Origin: an uncultured Methanobrevibacter sp.
Lineage (GTDB): Archaea > Methanobacteriota > Methanobacteria > Methanobacteriales > Methanobacteriaceae
Direction of reading: 5' to 3'
Assembly (NCBI RefSeq): GCF_905235195.1
Contig: NZ_CAJOKH010000018.1
Location: 1 to 35,967 of the forward strand
DNA: 35,967 bases
Position numbers and translations under genes: made by a program. Numbering within the stretch: position 1 is the stretch's first letter; the number at the start of each line of letters is the position of its first letter. The notes under the pieces are model-generated. The model had not been told where the DNA came from and searched no databases. It was given only the letters and a program-made list of their open reading frames with translations. Below, one piece after another: positions 1,972-35,905 of the stretch.

Positions 1972-2481
1972 GTATTTAGCTAAAAACTAAACTTAAATAT
2001 CATTTTTATGTTAGATGTTCTCTTTTTTATATTTAAGACATAATACTATTTGAAACTATTATATTTAGTTTAGTCATATTAATATATTAGATTCACCTTA
2101 TATATTAAATTTACTACTTTTAAATTAAAAATAACGGAAAATTAATAGAGAAAAAAATTGTATTGGAATATTTTTTAAAAATTAAAATCACTGAAGTTTT
2201 TGAAAGTGCCTAAAATAATAAAAAAAAAATATAAAATGGAATATTATAGTCTAGGACATTAAAATTTTAAGTCATAAATTGGGTTTTTTATATAAATGTT
2301 TCCAAAATTTTTTCTCCATAACTATATATTTAATTAATAGACCATTTGTTTATAAATTTATATCTAATTTATAATAATACTTAAAATTAATATTATAACC
2401 TTTATTATATTATATATTAAACAAGTATTAAACTATTAATTCTAATAGTACTTTAAAATAATAAATTTAAAAAATTATTAA
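1972..2481. other. gene-free AT-rich stretch
   Basis: Almost pure A/T with no ORF of note. It lies downstream of herA and should contain that gene's transcription end; T-rich tracts on the minus strand would serve. No specific hairpin was singled out. Confidence 0.5.
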
Positions 2482-4041
2482 TTAATAATTACCATCCATC
2501 AATTTAGATTCTTCTAATTGTCTTTCAAGCTCTTTTTCATGATTTTTAACTTCACTATTCCATGCAGCTAAAATATCGATGTCTCCACCTACACTTCTAC
2601 CTTTAAACTCATCTACTTTAACAAGTGTTGGAACTTTAGCCATAAGTCCTAAAACTAGAGCTTCACCAATATTTAATGACGGCAGTTGACTAACTAAATC
2701 ATCTGATAAAGATTCACTAGCCATCTGAACATGACGCTGATCTTTAGGTTCAACTAACCTTAATATAATCATATTATTTGCTTGAGACAATGCATCCGGG
2801 TCAACAGTTTTTGGAGATTGACTAACTAAACATAATCCTAAACCAAATTTACGACCTTCACGAGCAATTCTTCTAACCCAATATTTAGATTTTGTTTCAC
2901 GATCTTTAGGTGCCAAAATATGTGCTTCTTCAAGTACAAAGAATATTGGAAATGAAAGTTTATCTTTATTACCATGAATATAATCTTTACGGCTTTTAAG
3001 TGAAATTCTAAGAATATGTTCTACTAATACTTCAGCAGTCAATTCATCGACTTGCCCTAAATCAAGTACATTTGCCTGTGCTAGTTTAATTTGAGATAAA
3101 ATATTGTTTATATTAGTATTAAAAAGTTTACCGTATTTTTGCTCTAAATCATCTAATTTATTTATTACATCCATTATGGAATTTTTATCCTTAGATGATA
3201 TGGAATTAAAAATAATTTCTTGATTATTATCATATATGGGACCACTTTCTGTTCCATCTCCATACCAATTATTAAGGAATTTTTTAATGATTTGAATAAA
3301 ATTTTGACTAGATGATGTTCCACCCCTAATCTCCTTTTGACTTAGATAGAATGCTTTTCTAAAGTATCTTTCCTGAATATATGAATTAGATTTAATATTA
3401 GCTAATGATTTAAGCTCTGGAAAATCCATATGTAATGGATTTATAACTGGTTTGATAATGTTTACTTTACCGCTTGGAAATTCTGCATTTACATATTCAG
3501 AATGCATATCAAATATAAAAGGACAACCATTTCTCTCAAGAAGTCCATCTATTAACACACTTACTGTATTTGATTTTCCTGCTCCAGTCATAGCAAGTAT
3601 TGCAAGATGACGAGATACCATTTTATTAATATCCAATTTTACTGCAACATTTTCATTTGATATTAAACTACCTAATTTTAAACCATCTTTATTTTTAAAG
3701 ACTTTGTTTAAAATCTCAGGACTAGCAAGTTTTATTTCAGTTGCAGGAGGTGCTGGAGTACGTGGTATTTTTAAATTATCAACATCGCCAAGTATTTTAA
3801 CATTTCCTTTAATATAATAATCATCCCCTTCAATACTTCTTATACGAGATATTGTATCAGGGTCATATATATCCCCATTTAATGAAACACTTCCACGTAC
3901 AAGTGATTCTATCATACCGAGTATTGTTTGATTATTATATTCCATCGTTACATATTCACCCATCTTTGGCATACCTTTAGATATGAAACTTAACTCTGTT
4001 AGTGATGATTCACCTACACTAAGACCAATAATTTTTTCCAT
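2482..4041 (-). CDS. herA: HerA bipolar DNA helicase/translocase
   Basis: HerA is a hexameric FtsK-like ATPase that pumps and unwinds DNA and works with the nuclease NurA to resect broken ends during recombination. The 519-residue protein starts with the beta-barrel HAS-type domain (about 1-90). The RecA-like motor has Walker A MTGAGKSNT at 151-159 and Walker B FFVLEEAH at 367-374. Further motor motifs include an arginine-rich stretch RRIAREGRKFG at 390-400 and SQSP at 407-410. Length is normal for the family. The ATG at 4041 follows a TGGTGAAA ribosome site. It is read from the same strand as nurA about 190 bases upstream, as expected of this conserved pair in archaea. Confidence 0.93.
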   Translation of the reverse strand: MEKIIGLSVGESSLTELSFISKGMPKMGEYVTMEYNNQTILGMIESLVRGSVSLNGDIYDPDTISRIRSIEGDDYYIKGNVKILGDVDNLKIPRTPAPPATEIKLASPEILNKVFKNKDGLKLGSLISNENVAVKLDINKMVSRHLAILAMTGAGKSNTVSVLIDGLLERNGCPFIFDMHSEYVNAEFPSGKVNIIKPVINPLHMDFPELKSLANIKSNSYIQERYFRKAFYLSQKEIRGGTSSSQNFIQIIKKFLNNWYGDGTESGPIYDNNQEIIFNSISSKDKNSIMDVINKLDDLEQKYGKLFNTNINNILSQIKLAQANVLDLGQVDELTAEVLVEHILRISLKSRKDYIHGNKDKLSFPIFFVLEEAHILAPKDRETKSKYWVRRIAREGRKFGLGLCLVSQSPKTVDPDALSQANNMIILRLVEPKDQRHVQMASESLSDDLVSQLPSLNIGEALVLGLMAKVPTLVKVDEFKGRSVGGDIDILAAWNSEVKNHEKELERQLEESKLMDGNY

Positions 4042-8366: not shown

Positions 8367-8811
8367 TAAATTTCCCCATTAAAGTTTTATTTAATCTTAA
8401 ATTGTAATAATTTTCTAAAAAAAATAAAATATAAGTTTTTTTTAAAAAAATATAATCTTATTTAAGAGCTAATTAAATTAATAATAATATAATATATAAT
8501 TTTTATTATAAATAATTCATGTTTTATATTTTAAAAATAGTTTAACTTAGAGTTTACAGTTAAAACTCTATAAAAATATAAAATTTTTAATATTTAAATT
8601 TAAATAATTAATTTAATTAAAGATAATTATATTATAAAATTATTATTTTTAAAAATATAATATAATATTAATATAATTTTGTTTTAAAAAACTATTATAT
8701 TTATAAAAAATTTAATTAATTTAATTAATTTAATTATGAACTATAATAATAGACTAAATTACAGAAAATCTAAAATTTAAATTTATTTTTAATTATTTTT
8801 AAGTTGATATA
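8367..8811. promoter_or_regulatory. divergent promoter region
   Basis: About 445 gene-free bases between two divergently transcribed surface-protein genes, so both promoters lie here. The sequence is A/T with TAATT-rich simple repeats near 8700-8740. TATA-like words are too common in this composition for a specific box to be called. Confidence 0.4.
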
Positions 8812-9531
8812 ATGAAAGAAAGAAATCAAATATTAGTTGTTATATTAATATTACTAAGTATTTATGCAATAATTGTAAGTGTGACCTATTATATTCCATT
8901 AAATCAACAAAATGTAATTACTAGTTCCATTGTGGGTAATAATACTAATGGTACTGTATACAAAACTATATGTGGTAATACATCATCTAATGATACTGTA
9001 GTTTTAATTTTAGGTGTTCATAGCTTTGAAAGTGGTATACATAATGCAACCAATAAAACTGTATTAAATTTGACTAAAGAGAATAATTTAACTAAAAAAT
9101 ATGTTGTTTATTTCATTAAAGTGAATATGAATGCATCTGGTATTGACACTGAGGACTATCAAACCAATAGACATATGGGAGAACTATTGGCTAATAAATA
9201 TATTGTAAAAGATCTCATACAATATAATCCCATAGCAGTTGTTGATGTTCATGAAATGGAAGCATATTGGGATCCTACTGAATTTATAGAAGTTATAAAT
9301 ACTAATTCATCTTTAGCTAATGAATATGGTCATAAATTAAGTAATGATACGGGTATAAAAGAATATACCTTCACAGAAGGAACCTCACCAGAATGGGTAA
9401 CAATACCTATAGCTAATGAAGGATTTAACACAATAATATTTGAAACTGCACAAGCCGACTCAAATTCAGATAAAATGAAAACTGCAGAGAAGCTTATTAG
9501 AAGTCTTGATAGTTTTAAAATTAGAAAATAA
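8812..9531 (+). CDS. membrane-anchored M14-like metallopeptidase/deacylase
   Basis: The 239-residue protein has one N-terminal membrane helix (about 7-28), then an extracellular Asn/Thr-rich domain with zinc-carboxypeptidase-like motifs. These are HxxE in ILGVHSFESG (His70, Glu73), a third ligand in VVDVHEME (His147), and a late catalytic glutamate in IIFETA (Glu211). This order fits the M14 family and the succinylglutamate desuccinylase/aspartoacylase branch. The domain is short for a true carboxypeptidase, so the substrate is unknown; peptide or cell-wall substrates outside the cell are plausible. It shares the SIVGN motif after the membrane segment with its divergent neighbour. The ribosome site (AGTTGATATA) is weak. 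Confidence 0.65.
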   Translation: MKERNQILVVILILLSIYAIIVSVTYYIPLNQQNVITSSIVGNNTNGTVYKTICGNTSSNDTVVLILGVHSFESGIHNATNKTVLNLTKENNLTKKYVVYFIKVNMNASGIDTEDYQTNRHMGELLANKYIVKDLIQYNPIAVVDVHEMEAYWDPTEFIEVINTNSSLANEYGHKLSNDTGIKEYTFTEGTSPEWVTIPIANEGFNTIIFETAQADSNSDKMKTAEKLIRSLDSFKIRK

Positions 9532-31885: not shown

Positions 31886-32280
31886 AGAAGGAAAATTTAT
31901 CTTGTGGAAAAGATACAATAAACTAAACATACATATGCTACGAAGATACTTCGCAACCACCCTATCCAATCCCATAAATGGAGATTTAGACACAGTAATG
32001 CCCTCCGAGCATATAGATGCTTTTGAGGGTAGAAGTAAAAATAGTATGATAAGTATCTATGCAAAGAAAAATCCATCTGTTAAAAAAAGTGTATATGAGG
32101 TATATGTATCGGCTTGTTATTGATGTTGAAAAGTATACTCATAAGCAGTTACAAGAAGAGAATAGGGAATTAAGGTTAAAAGCTGAAAAGGTTGATTTGA
32201 TTGAGGAGGAGATTAAGGATATGAAAGATGTTTATGAGACTATTATTGAGAATAATAAGAAGAAATGGTTAAGAGTTTAA
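31886..32280 (+). pseudogene. tyrosine recombinase (integrase), C-terminal fragment, frameshifted
   Basis: The first frame reads WKRYNKLNIHMLRRYFATTL, with the HxLR catalytic motif of tyrosine recombinases. It continues through MPSEHIDAFEG (second His region) and MISIYAKKNPSVKK, where the Tyr is the presumed nucleophile. The frame is then lost in an A7 run (about 32083-32089). The expected C-terminal region continues in another frame: YMRYMYRLVIDVEKYTHK, then ENRELRLKAEKVDLIEEEI to the stop at 32280. The N-terminal half is missing and an in-frame stop lies just upstream. It is a dead remnant. Integrases commonly sit beside restriction-modification genes on mobile islands. Confidence 0.75.
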
Positions 32281-32410: not shown

Positions 32411-32836
32411 ATGGAATCACTAAAAGAAAAGGACATTCAAATTAATTCAATACCCTCTAAAAAAATTAAGTGTTTTATAACTGGGAAGTTGAGGAAAAAC
32501 ACTCCTGAAGAAAGAGTTAGACAAGATTTTGCTAGATTACTGGTCGAAATATATGGGTATAGTATCAAAGATATGGATGCTGAATTTACAATTAAAATGG
32601 GTAGAGAAAAGAAAAAAGCAGATATTGTCATATTTAAAGAAAATGAAGAACACCTTCAAGAAAATATAATAATTATTGTGGAGGTAAAAAAAGAAGATGT
32701 TTCACCATCAGATAAAAAAGAGGGTGTAGACCAATTAAAATCATACTGTTCTGCTTCTATAAAATGTGAATATGGTATATGGGCAGGTAATGAAAAAATA
32801 GTCTATAAAAAATTGAAGATAAACAATTTATCTTAG
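32411..32836 (+). CDS. N-terminal nuclease-like (HSDR_N) part of a split R-M protein
   Basis: A 141-residue open frame starting MESLKEKDIQINSIPSKKIK. It matches the N-terminal domain of type I restriction subunits: NTPEERVRQDFARLLVE (30-46), ADIVIF (Asp71) followed by IIIIVEVKKEDV (Glu91-x-Lys93), and DQLKSYCSA (107-115). These form a complete PD-(D/E)xK-type set plus the Q motif, so a nuclease is possible. The frame ends early because an A6 run (32807-32812) is one base short: a -1 shift there joins directly to the methylase frame (ATT GAA GAT AAA, then FILVPDIPRFG). Together the product would be 604 residues. GTGATAGA precedes the ATG. Confidence 0.8.
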   Translation: MESLKEKDIQINSIPSKKIKCFITGKLRKNTPEERVRQDFARLLVEIYGYSIKDMDAEFTIKMGREKKKADIVIFKENEEHLQENIIIIVEVKKEDVSPSDKKEGVDQLKSYCSASIKCEYGIWAGNEKIVYKKLKINNLS

Positions 32837-34224
32837 TTCCTGATATTCCTCGTTTTGGTGAATCCTCTATCCCCATTCCAGATAGGAACTATTTGAAACC
32901 TGCAATTAATTTAAAACATAATTTCAAAAGAATACATTCTTATATTTATGCTCATGAGGGTTTACATAAAGATACAGCTTTTGAAGAGCTTCAAAAGTTA
33001 ATATTTTGTAAAGTGTATGATGAACAATTTAATCGAGTTTTAAAGTTTTATATATTGCCCGATGAATCAGATGAAAATTTTAAAAATAGGATTGATGATT
33101 TATTTATGCATGTTAAAAAAAGATATGATTTTATTTTTAATGATAATGAAGAAATAAACTTGAATATACATACTATAAAATACATAGTTTCAGAATTATA
33201 TAATTTTAATTTGTTAGATACTAATATAGATATTAAAGGCGAAGCATATGAAGAAATTGTTGGTTCAAATTTAAGAGGCGATAAAGGTGAATTTTTTACA
33301 CCTAGAAATGTAACTTCAATGGTTACTGAAATGGTTTTATCACTATTCACTGAAGATAAAATAACTAGCCCAGGTGGAATTAAAATTCTTGACCCTGCAT
33401 TGGGAACAGGTGGATTTTTGATTTCTACTATCCATACAATTAAGAAAATGTTAGAAGATGAAAAATTTGATGATATTCAAATTAGAGATATGTTAAAAGA
33501 AATCTCTTCCAATAATTTATATGGACTTGATTTTAATCCATTTTTAGTCAAAGTTGCACAAATGAACATGGTTATGCATGGAGACGGTTCATCTAATGTA
33601 GTTAAAGCAAATTCTTTAGACTTGCCTAAAAATTGGCCTCTTCAAACACAACAACAATTTGGTTTTGAAACATTTGATCTTGTTATTACTAATCCTCCAT
33701 TTGGAGCAAATATTAAAATTGAAGTTCCAGAAATTTTAGAACAATATACATTATCTAAATTTGGAGCTAAAAATCCTAGGTCATCTCTACCACCAGAACA
33801 ATTATTTATTGAAAGGTGTTTAGATTTTTTAAAACCTGGAGGTTATTTAGCTATTGTTTTACCAGATAGTATATTGAGTAATCCTGGATTAAAATGGTTA
33901 AGAGAGTATATTTTTCATGAAAACTTTATTATAGCAAGTATAGATTTGCCGGGCGAAACTTTTCAACCAAGTACTGGTACACAAACAAGTGTTTTAATCT
34001 TAAAAAAGAAAACAGATGTGGAAAAGAAAATTAATGAAGATTATGACATATTTATGGCATTGCCTAAAACAGTTGGACATGATAGGCGAGGAAAACCTAT
34101 TTATAAACAAACTCTTGATGGTCAAAATATATTAGATGAAAATGGGGAGTGTATAATTGATGATTCACTTCCTCTTGTAGTTGAAGGATTTAAACAATGG
34201 CTTAAAAATGAAGGTATGATTTAA
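32812..34224 (+). CDS. hsdM: N6-adenine DNA methyltransferase (HsdM-like), second part of the split protein
   Basis: The frame opens after a stop at 32806 and has no good start codon of its own; the first possible one is TTG at 32893 (443 residues). The true beginning is probably the preceding nuclease frame. Motifs counted from the TTG: KGEAYEEIVGSNLRGDKGEF (115-134), GEFFTPRNVTSMV (132-144), the SAM-binding ILDPALGTGGFLIST (165-179), NLYGLDFNPFLV, and the catalytic LVITNPPFGANI (263-274). It modifies adenine in a target chosen by the specificity subunit next door, whose gene starts directly at its stop codon. Length and motifs match type I and BcgI-like methylases. Whether it is expressed alone depends on the frameshift. 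Confidence 0.85.
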   Translation: MEDKQFILVPDIPRFGESSIPIPDRNYLKPAINLKHNFKRIHSYIYAHEGLHKDTAFEELQKLIFCKVYDEQFNRVLKFYILPDESDENFKNRIDDLFMHVKKRYDFIFNDNEEINLNIHTIKYIVSELYNFNLLDTNIDIKGEAYEEIVGSNLRGDKGEFFTPRNVTSMVTEMVLSLFTEDKITSPGGIKILDPALGTGGFLISTIHTIKKMLEDEKFDDIQIRDMLKEISSNNLYGLDFNPFLVKVAQMNMVMHGDGSSNVVKANSLDLPKNWPLQTQQQFGFETFDLVITNPPFGANIKIEVPEILEQYTLSKFGAKNPRSSLPPEQLFIERCLDFLKPGGYLAIVLPDSILSNPGLKWLREYIFHENFIIASIDLPGETFQPSTGTQTSVLILKKKTDVEKKINEDYDIFMALPKTVGHDRRGKPIYKQTLDGQNILDENGECIIDDSLPLVVEGFKQWLKNEGMI

Positions 34225-35661
34225 TTGTTCGTAGAAGATGATAATATTGAATTTTTCAATTTAAATACTAAATATTTTAATAAAGATAATTATAGTCTTA
34301 ATTCCTCTTTTTATCAAAATGATGTTGAATTATATGTTATGATGATTAAAATATTTGAGGAAAATGGTATTGAAATAAAAAAAATCAGTGAAATATCTTA
34401 TTGTAATTATGTTCCTAATCGTGCAAAAACAATTTTTGTAGAAAAAGAAAATGGATTTCCATATTTATCTCCAAAAGACACTTTTACCTTCCCATTAAGT
34501 GCTGAAAAATATTCTTTGGAATTTCCTGAAAGTTGTCAAGTAATTGATAAATGGTTATTAATCACATGTTCTGGCACTACTGGTCGTTCCATAATTTCTA
34601 ATAATTTATTTAAAAATTTTGTCATATCAAATGATATGATTAGACTGTCAGTTTCTAGTGATTATTTAGGATATATTTATGCTTTTATTAATACTAACAT
34701 GGGAAAAAATTTAATTAAACGACATGAATATGGTTCTACTGTAAAGCATATTAATCCTGAACATATTGAACTTTTAAAAATTCCAATATTTTATGAGTTA
34801 AAGGATGAAATAAATGATTTGATTATTAAATCACATGAAATACGTGAAAATGCACAATTTTCGATGCAAACTAGTATAAAAAATTTATATGATTTCTTTA
34901 ATTTGCCAATAATTGGTCCCAAACAGATTAAAAATGGCATCGATGAAAATTATGATAAAAATAGATGCTTTAATGTAAATGCTAATCAATTACAATGTAG
35001 ATTTGATGGTTCTTTTCATGACCCTATATATACTAATAACATGAAAAATTTATCGAAAAAGGCTGAATCTGATGAATTTTATTTATGTAACTTGGAAGAT
35101 TTTGTTGATATTTATGTTCCACCCAGATTTAAAAGAAATTATGTTGATGACGAAAATGAAAGTGTTCCTTTATTACAAGGAAGCCATATAACTCAAATTA
35201 AACCTCAAGGTCTTAAAAGAATCTATTCTGGAATGAAAAATATTGAAAAATATGTTGTAAAGGAAGGAATGATTTTATTAACAGGTTCAGGAACAATAGG
35301 TAATTTATCATTAGTTAGCAAATATTGGGATAATTGGACTGCTACTAACCATTTAATTAGATTTGTACCAAAAAATGAATCTATTAATCCAGGATATTTA
35401 TTACTATTCCTATTAAGTGATTATGCACAAATTCAACTTGACCACATAGTTTATGGCTCTAATGTAGATGAAATTGCTGAATCGGGAGATTTACTTAATA
35501 AAATAAAAATTTTAGCCCCATATGATAAGAATATTGAAAATAAATTAGGTGATGCTGTTATTGAAGCATATAATAATCGAGATAAAGCTAATCTAATTGA
35601 AGAAACAGCTATAAATAAATTAGAAAGTAAAATCAATGAAACTTATTCAAAATTCTGTTAA
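34225..35661 (+). CDS. hsdS: type I-like DNA specificity subunit HsdS
   Basis: A 478-residue protein with two target-recognition domains joined and followed by helical spacers. The first domain covers about 15-200 with LLITCSGTTGRSII and HEYGSTVKHINPEHIELLKI. The second covers about 255-455 with SVPLLQGSHITQIKP, EGMILLTGSGTIGNLSLV and VYGSNVDEIAES. Helices ILAPYDKNIENKLGDAVIEA and the C-terminal one form the usual spacers. It sets which sequence the methylase and nuclease recognise. The TTG at 34225 lies directly after the methylase stop, with GAAGGT 10 to 15 bases upstream, so translation is coupled. No other close start exists in this frame. Confidence 0.88.
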   Translation: MFVEDDNIEFFNLNTKYFNKDNYSLNSSFYQNDVELYVMMIKIFEENGIEIKKISEISYCNYVPNRAKTIFVEKENGFPYLSPKDTFTFPLSAEKYSLEFPESCQVIDKWLLITCSGTTGRSIISNNLFKNFVISNDMIRLSVSSDYLGYIYAFINTNMGKNLIKRHEYGSTVKHINPEHIELLKIPIFYELKDEINDLIIKSHEIRENAQFSMQTSIKNLYDFFNLPIIGPKQIKNGIDENYDKNRCFNVNANQLQCRFDGSFHDPIYTNNMKNLSKKAESDEFYLCNLEDFVDIYVPPRFKRNYVDDENESVPLLQGSHITQIKPQGLKRIYSGMKNIEKYVVKEGMILLTGSGTIGNLSLVSKYWDNWTATNHLIRFVPKNESINPGYLLLFLLSDYAQIQLDHIVYGSNVDEIAESGDLLNKIKILAPYDKNIENKLGDAVIEAYNNRDKANLIEETAINKLESKINETYSKFC

Positions 35662-35905
35662 TTACTAATTTAATTTTTATTTTTCATATATAAACTTAAC
35701 CATTATGTAAATTCATTCTTAATTTCAATTATATATAATGTAACCAACTAATATTTTAGGGATATGTTATAGTAATGATCTACTATTAATAATCTCTATT
35801 TTTTGTAATTTATTTTTAATTTGATATGTGTTTTCTAATTTCTCACTTTTATTTATTGATAGATAATTACATTTTCTCTAATTTACAGGGGGTGTTTTTA
35901 ATATT

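Follow-up and report, generated by a model that had tools for sequence, protein, structure and literature searches.

The right end of a 35,967-nucleotide stretch of DNA from an uncultured Methanobrevibacter sp. (the window, which is contig C18 of a 107-contig, 1.89 Mb draft genome) carries on its + strand three reading units, which Pfam assigns to a nuclease domain, an N6-adenine methylase and a specificity (S) subunit. The first two are the halves of a single nuclease-methylase (RM) gene that is continuous in relatives from archaea, bacteria, plasmids and viral contigs and is broken here by one frame change. We lean, somewhat beyond an even chance, towards a real and recent loss-of-function mutation of an ordinary kind, in a decaying mobile island. 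The features of the locus are as follows.

31902..32280, + strand: tyrosine integrase remnant, C-terminal ~120 residues only, frameshifted, from a DNA alignment to L036
32411..32836, + strand: 5' half of the RM gene, PD-(D/E)XK nuclease (HSDR_N_2), 141 aa, Pfam HSDR_N_2 E 2.9e-21; the 0-frame reading ends at TAG 32834-32836
32807..32812, + strand: A6 run, meeting point of the nuclease and methylase frames from the stop map, with a two-residue homology gap here
32809..34224, + strand: 3' half of the RM gene, gamma-class N6-adenine methyltransferase in the -1 frame, Pfam N6_Mtase E 1.1e-35 (frame 32809-34221)
34225..35661, + strand: specificity (S) subunit gene, 478 aa, Pfam Methylase_S with two target-recognition stretches, E 7.6e-13

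The RM+S system is present as a single copy in its genome, and neither Rfam families nor tRNAs turned up in scans of the window. Judged by the genes of the window and by the closest named relative, an uncultured Methanobrevibacter, the DNA would belong to the Methanobacteriaceae.

One gene in two reading frames

The methylase frame is offset by -1 from the nuclease frame. Upstream, the methylase frame is interrupted by stops, the last being TAA at 32806, while the nuclease frame closes at TAG 32834; these two stops bound both frames, and the junction can thus lie only within the 27-base overlap at 32807-32833. The match to the closest relative, L006, breaks off at nuclease residue 133 and restarts at L006 residue 136 in the other frame, which places the frame change at about 32807-32815, that is, in the A6 run and its edge. 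The run at 32807-32812 is therefore the most likely seat of the frame-changing indel. The nuclease half is 70% identical to the N-terminus of the L006 RM protein and the methylase half is 69% identical to its residues 136-604, and two halves that each match the corresponding part of one continuous protein this closely are not a product of chance. A -1 reading at the run yields 134 + 470 = 604 residues, and the intact L006 protein likewise has 604. The preliminary description of this DNA had proposed a single nuclease-methylase chain that is interrupted by one base within the A6 run, with a fused product of 604 residues and catalytic motifs kept in both halves. The stop map and the homology to L006 uphold the first proposal and the length of L006 the second, and the motifs were located in the nuclease half (ADIVIF 32618-32635, VEVK 32678-32689 and DQLKSY 32729-32746) as well as in the methylase half (DPALGTGG 33391-33414 and NPPF 33691-33702).

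In the close relatives (L003 and L006-L012) both domains are housed in a single ORF of 599-645 aa, with the S gene coming next and overlapping the RM gene by a short distance.

L006, Methanobrevibacter RUG11657: 69% identical, 604 aa, closest relative
L003: 63% identical, single RM ORF
L007-L009, bacterial assemblies: 61-62% identical, single RM ORF
L010 and L011, archaea: 58% identical, single RM ORF
L012: 44% identical, single RM ORF

The same holds for the more distant relative L004 (a single RM frame of 591 aa) and for the plasmid relatives, in which RM is likewise one gene, and the entire match lies in one frame in each viral-contig relative that was inspected. One open frame in relatives of such varied origin indicates that the RM gene of the window is one gene, now broken. 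The outcome that had been set beforehand as fatal to this idea, homologs that are always two separate genes, was not encountered. A second strain was also sought, but same-genus genomes gave no homologue, and searches of the family and the phylum recovered only four to five carriers.

These comparisons also bear on the notion that fission has produced two natural, separate genes, one for a nuclease protein and one for a methylase. The methylase frame does offer a first start at TTG 32893, 57 bases past the nuclease stop, with the weak motif AGGA 5 nt upstream; this codon, however, encodes a leucine that is invariant among relatives, the later starts are only GTG 33013, TTG 33055 and ATG 33106 (the first ATG), and none of the relatives is split here. 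Given fused relatives and no good start, fission was rejected, and we consider its probability negligible.

Some irregularities were noted elsewhere among these genes. At 34222-34225 of the window, the RM stop is immediately followed by the only start of the S gene, a TTG in the RM frame, at the place where relatives overlap RM and S. L005 (G053:C318), a distant RM relative in a further genome of this family, likewise has a broken frame, though the break falls elsewhere, inside the methylase after NPPF (frames 1048-2448 and 2390-3409 of the reverse complement), and an integrase gene adjoins it. In L011, a Thermococcaceae assembly, RM is intact and S is disrupted, its sequence being spread over three frames (2083-3536). 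Among the near-identical Spiroplasma citri plasmids L030-L032, the related methylase is one gene in one record and several pieces in two.

A compact RM+S system

By its architecture, we class the system as a stand-alone two-gene RM+S system of a Type IIB-like (BcgI/BsaXI-like) kind, with putative two-sided cleavage. Like the Type IIB enzymes BcgI and BsaXI, it combines an RM fusion gene with a separate S gene bearing two recognition stretches; the RM chain has an N-terminal PD-(D/E)XK nuclease and a gamma-class N6-adenine methylase, and no ATP-driven motor subunit is seen adjoining. The single chain of nuclease and methylase is found in L003 and L006-L012, and the window holds the same chain with one frame change, followed by an S protein in which Methylase_S matches two stretches. 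No HsdR-like motor or translocase was found among the scanned neighbour genes of L003, L006, L007, L009 and L010; the window contig ends 306 bases past S, and the absence of a motor downstream there would follow from these relatives. RM.BsaXI is the best solved match by sequence (E 4.7e-27), and it also ranks first in a Foldseek search with the intact L006 protein (E 9.3e-27, TM-score 0.51 on the query, for an AlphaFold model with a mean pLDDT of 79.7), whereas a sequence search with only the nuclease half returned no solved relative. The Type IIB enzyme BsaXI forms an (RM)2S assembly with an N-terminal PD-(D/E)xK site (PMC11997821), and BcgI-like RM+S enzymes have been viewed as Type I systems that are pared down and cleave at fixed positions (PMC3874165). 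At 916 aa BsaXI is longer than the RM chain of about 600 aa seen here, and its extra elements (knob, paddle) are thus probably absent. A further difference from the Type IIB enzymes is that the RM copy of the window is split by a frame change.

Two other affiliations deserve mention. In NCBIfam, RM and S come closest to MAD2 and MAD5 of the methylation-associated defence system (MADS), and the MAD2 profile likewise covers a nuclease-like N-terminus together with a methylase. The scores, however, fall short of the curated cut-offs: for MAD2 the window halves reach 78.7 and 417 bits and the intact relatives 498-591, against a cut-off of 720, and for MAD5 the S protein of the window scores 280 bits, within a range of 280-390 across the window and the intact relatives, against a cut-off of 400. 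No MADS cluster was found in the scanned flanking genes of L003, L006, L007, L009 and L010, where there was one weak match to the mad8 ATPase, and membership of MADS was rejected on the scores and on the lack of an adjoining cluster. With Type I systems (HsdR/HsdM/HsdS) there is a shared set of parts, namely an HSDR_N_2-type nuclease domain, an HsdM-like methylase and an HsdS-like S subunit, but here nuclease and methylase form one chain, and the nuclease comes without the helicase/translocase. The genome has a separate, ordinary Type I HsdR on contig C61.

The origin of the frame change

Residues that are invariant among relatives are kept at 39 of 39 positions in the nuclease, 157 of 166 in the methylase and 104 of 121 in S, in agreement with the earlier suggestion that any decay is recent or absent. 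The nuclease half displays no excess of change relative to L006, with 6 residues unique to the window and 13 unique to L006. Random substitution would be expected to place a stop somewhere in the 1079 codons of the system after just 12 changes (median); with so few sufficient and both halves otherwise intact, either the frame was broken very recently or the break does not exist in the organism. The truncated and frameshifted integrase just upstream favours real decay at the locus, and hence the recent mutation that we prefer.

The alternative, that a sequence or assembly error has split a continuous RM gene of a working system and that the break exists only in the 107-contig draft, is tentative, though it carries a substantial share of the probability. 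Every close relative is continuous, conserved residues are kept on both sides of the break, and the absence of further disabling changes would be expected no less if a working gene had been misread. Moreover, a large survey found that frameshifts seen in a single genome and confirmed by BLASTp and Pfam are typically sequencing errors or indels in pseudogenes (PMC3711429), a description that fits the lone frameshift discussed here. Against an error, roughly 25 further ORFs in this DNA seem intact in spite of 54 A/T runs of 6-8, a background frameshift rate that is judged from the window alone, and the nearby integrase remnant has truly decayed. A homopolymer-error pattern common to that remnant and the RM gene was considered and rejected, as a 2-base gap in a truncated pseudogene explains the remnant better.

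The position of a homopolymer at the junction had led the preliminary description to view the A run as a possible site of phase variation, at which slipped-strand changes would switch the RM chain on and off, with an uncoupled methylase as the off state. Type IIB systems of Helicobacter pylori do have a phase-variable tract, but it consists of 13-14 G in the S gene, and repeats above 8 are thought likely to reactivate or switch in that species (PMC3936762); the published cut-off for poly-A/T phase variation is at least 10 (PMC6321876), which the A6 run does not approach. The H. pylori genes JHP1272 and HP1471 resemble the present case in that a gene of an RM system is interrupted at a homopolymer, yet they have long tracts for which two lengths have been seen, whereas here a single length is known for an unconserved A6. 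The run is absent from all eight relatives inspected, and no tract is therefore being maintained by selection at this site. At the corresponding place L006 reads TATAAGATTAATG (codons TAT AAG ATT AAT GAA). Runs of equal or greater length are also common in intact genes: those 54 A/T runs of 6-8 lie within intact ORFs, the + strand of the window has 47 A6 runs and 49 longer A runs, and the nuclease half alone has six runs of 6-7. The A6 is an ordinary run in DNA of 25.6% GC, and the claim of a phase-variation site is not supported; we regard the idea as improbable. Improbable, too, would be a slow on/off switch, or leaky slippage, at the A6 of an archaeal Type IIB-like enzyme, whereby the nuclease is turned off and S and the uncoupled methylase are left in a modification-only state.

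The remaining proposal, also raised in the preliminary description, is programmed recoding, in which -1 ribosomal frameshifting or slippage of RNA polymerase would generate a short nuclease chain along with the full RM chain. The 0-frame codons TAT AAA AAA TTG let one lysine tRNA re-pair at -1, although full re-pairing is possible for the second lysine codon only, and a perfect 8-bp hairpin rich in A+U begins 3 nt past the run. U_AA.A_AA.U is nevertheless a poor -1 heptamer, and the site amounts to an A_AA.A tetramer, which in E. coli is barely or not shifty in the absence of a strong stimulator (PMC4066793). The 100-base fold behind the run lies inside the shuffled range (z-score -1.07), and 27% of the A6 or longer runs of the window have an equal or better downstream fold. 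Polymerase slippage, for its part, has been described in bacteria for tracts of some 9 A or T (PMC5009743), as against A6 here. Neither the slippery site nor the frame change is conserved, since eight relatives read straight through without a run. Recoding was accordingly rejected on motif, structure and conservation, and we hold it to be very unlikely.

Mobile surroundings and the fate of the system

The integrase remnant lies 130 bases upstream of RM, retains only the last ~120 residues and has a frame change of its own; compared with L036, a continuous frame in a same-genus genome, it is 80% identical in a DNA alignment that starts at ~31911 and contains a net 2-base gap. On the basis of this comparison it is read as the mark of a decayed mobile element, and it may have decayed before the RM gene or independently of it. 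At the left contig end (1092-1375), short ORFs with a weak match to a DDE transposase (E 0.0008) appear to be a decayed insertion sequence. Together, the integrase remnant and the transposase fragment indicate that degraded mobile DNA is genuinely present in the window.

The intergenic sequence after S (35749-35870) has short matches on several other contigs at 78-83% identity and looks like a small dispersed repeat; that the last 306 bases of the contig belong to a larger repeat found elsewhere was considered and rejected, as there are short dispersed pieces only. Adjoining the intact RM gene of L006, a DUF5655 protein (8532-9470) matches the candidate defence family PDC-S18, and an ArdC-like gene lies further upstream. 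The L006 system thus appears to be part of a mobile defence island.

By analogy with Type IIB enzymes, the intact system would act as two RM chains with one S subunit, modifying adenines within a bipartite site and cleaving when that site carries no methylation. A recent indel in or beside the A6 run would break the RM chain, and translation would then yield a 141-residue nuclease fragment, as the frames show, that is probably inert, while the methylase would be made only from the weak TTG start past the nuclease stop or by rare slippage. As the nuclease piece would lack the methylase part through which RM contacts S and DNA, restriction would be off if the split is real. The system is thus probably off, with at best some M2S-type methylation left, and a modification-only state is a possible, putative outcome.

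This returns us to the family as a whole. Its intact members outline a compact RM+S group common to methanogens, other archaea and bacteria, and the copy described here illustrates how a single defence enzyme can appear in a draft genome as a pair of proteins, since annotation would list a nuclease-like fragment and a methylase, each as an orphan. A genuine split would add one more case of the fast loss of restriction systems on mobile islands.
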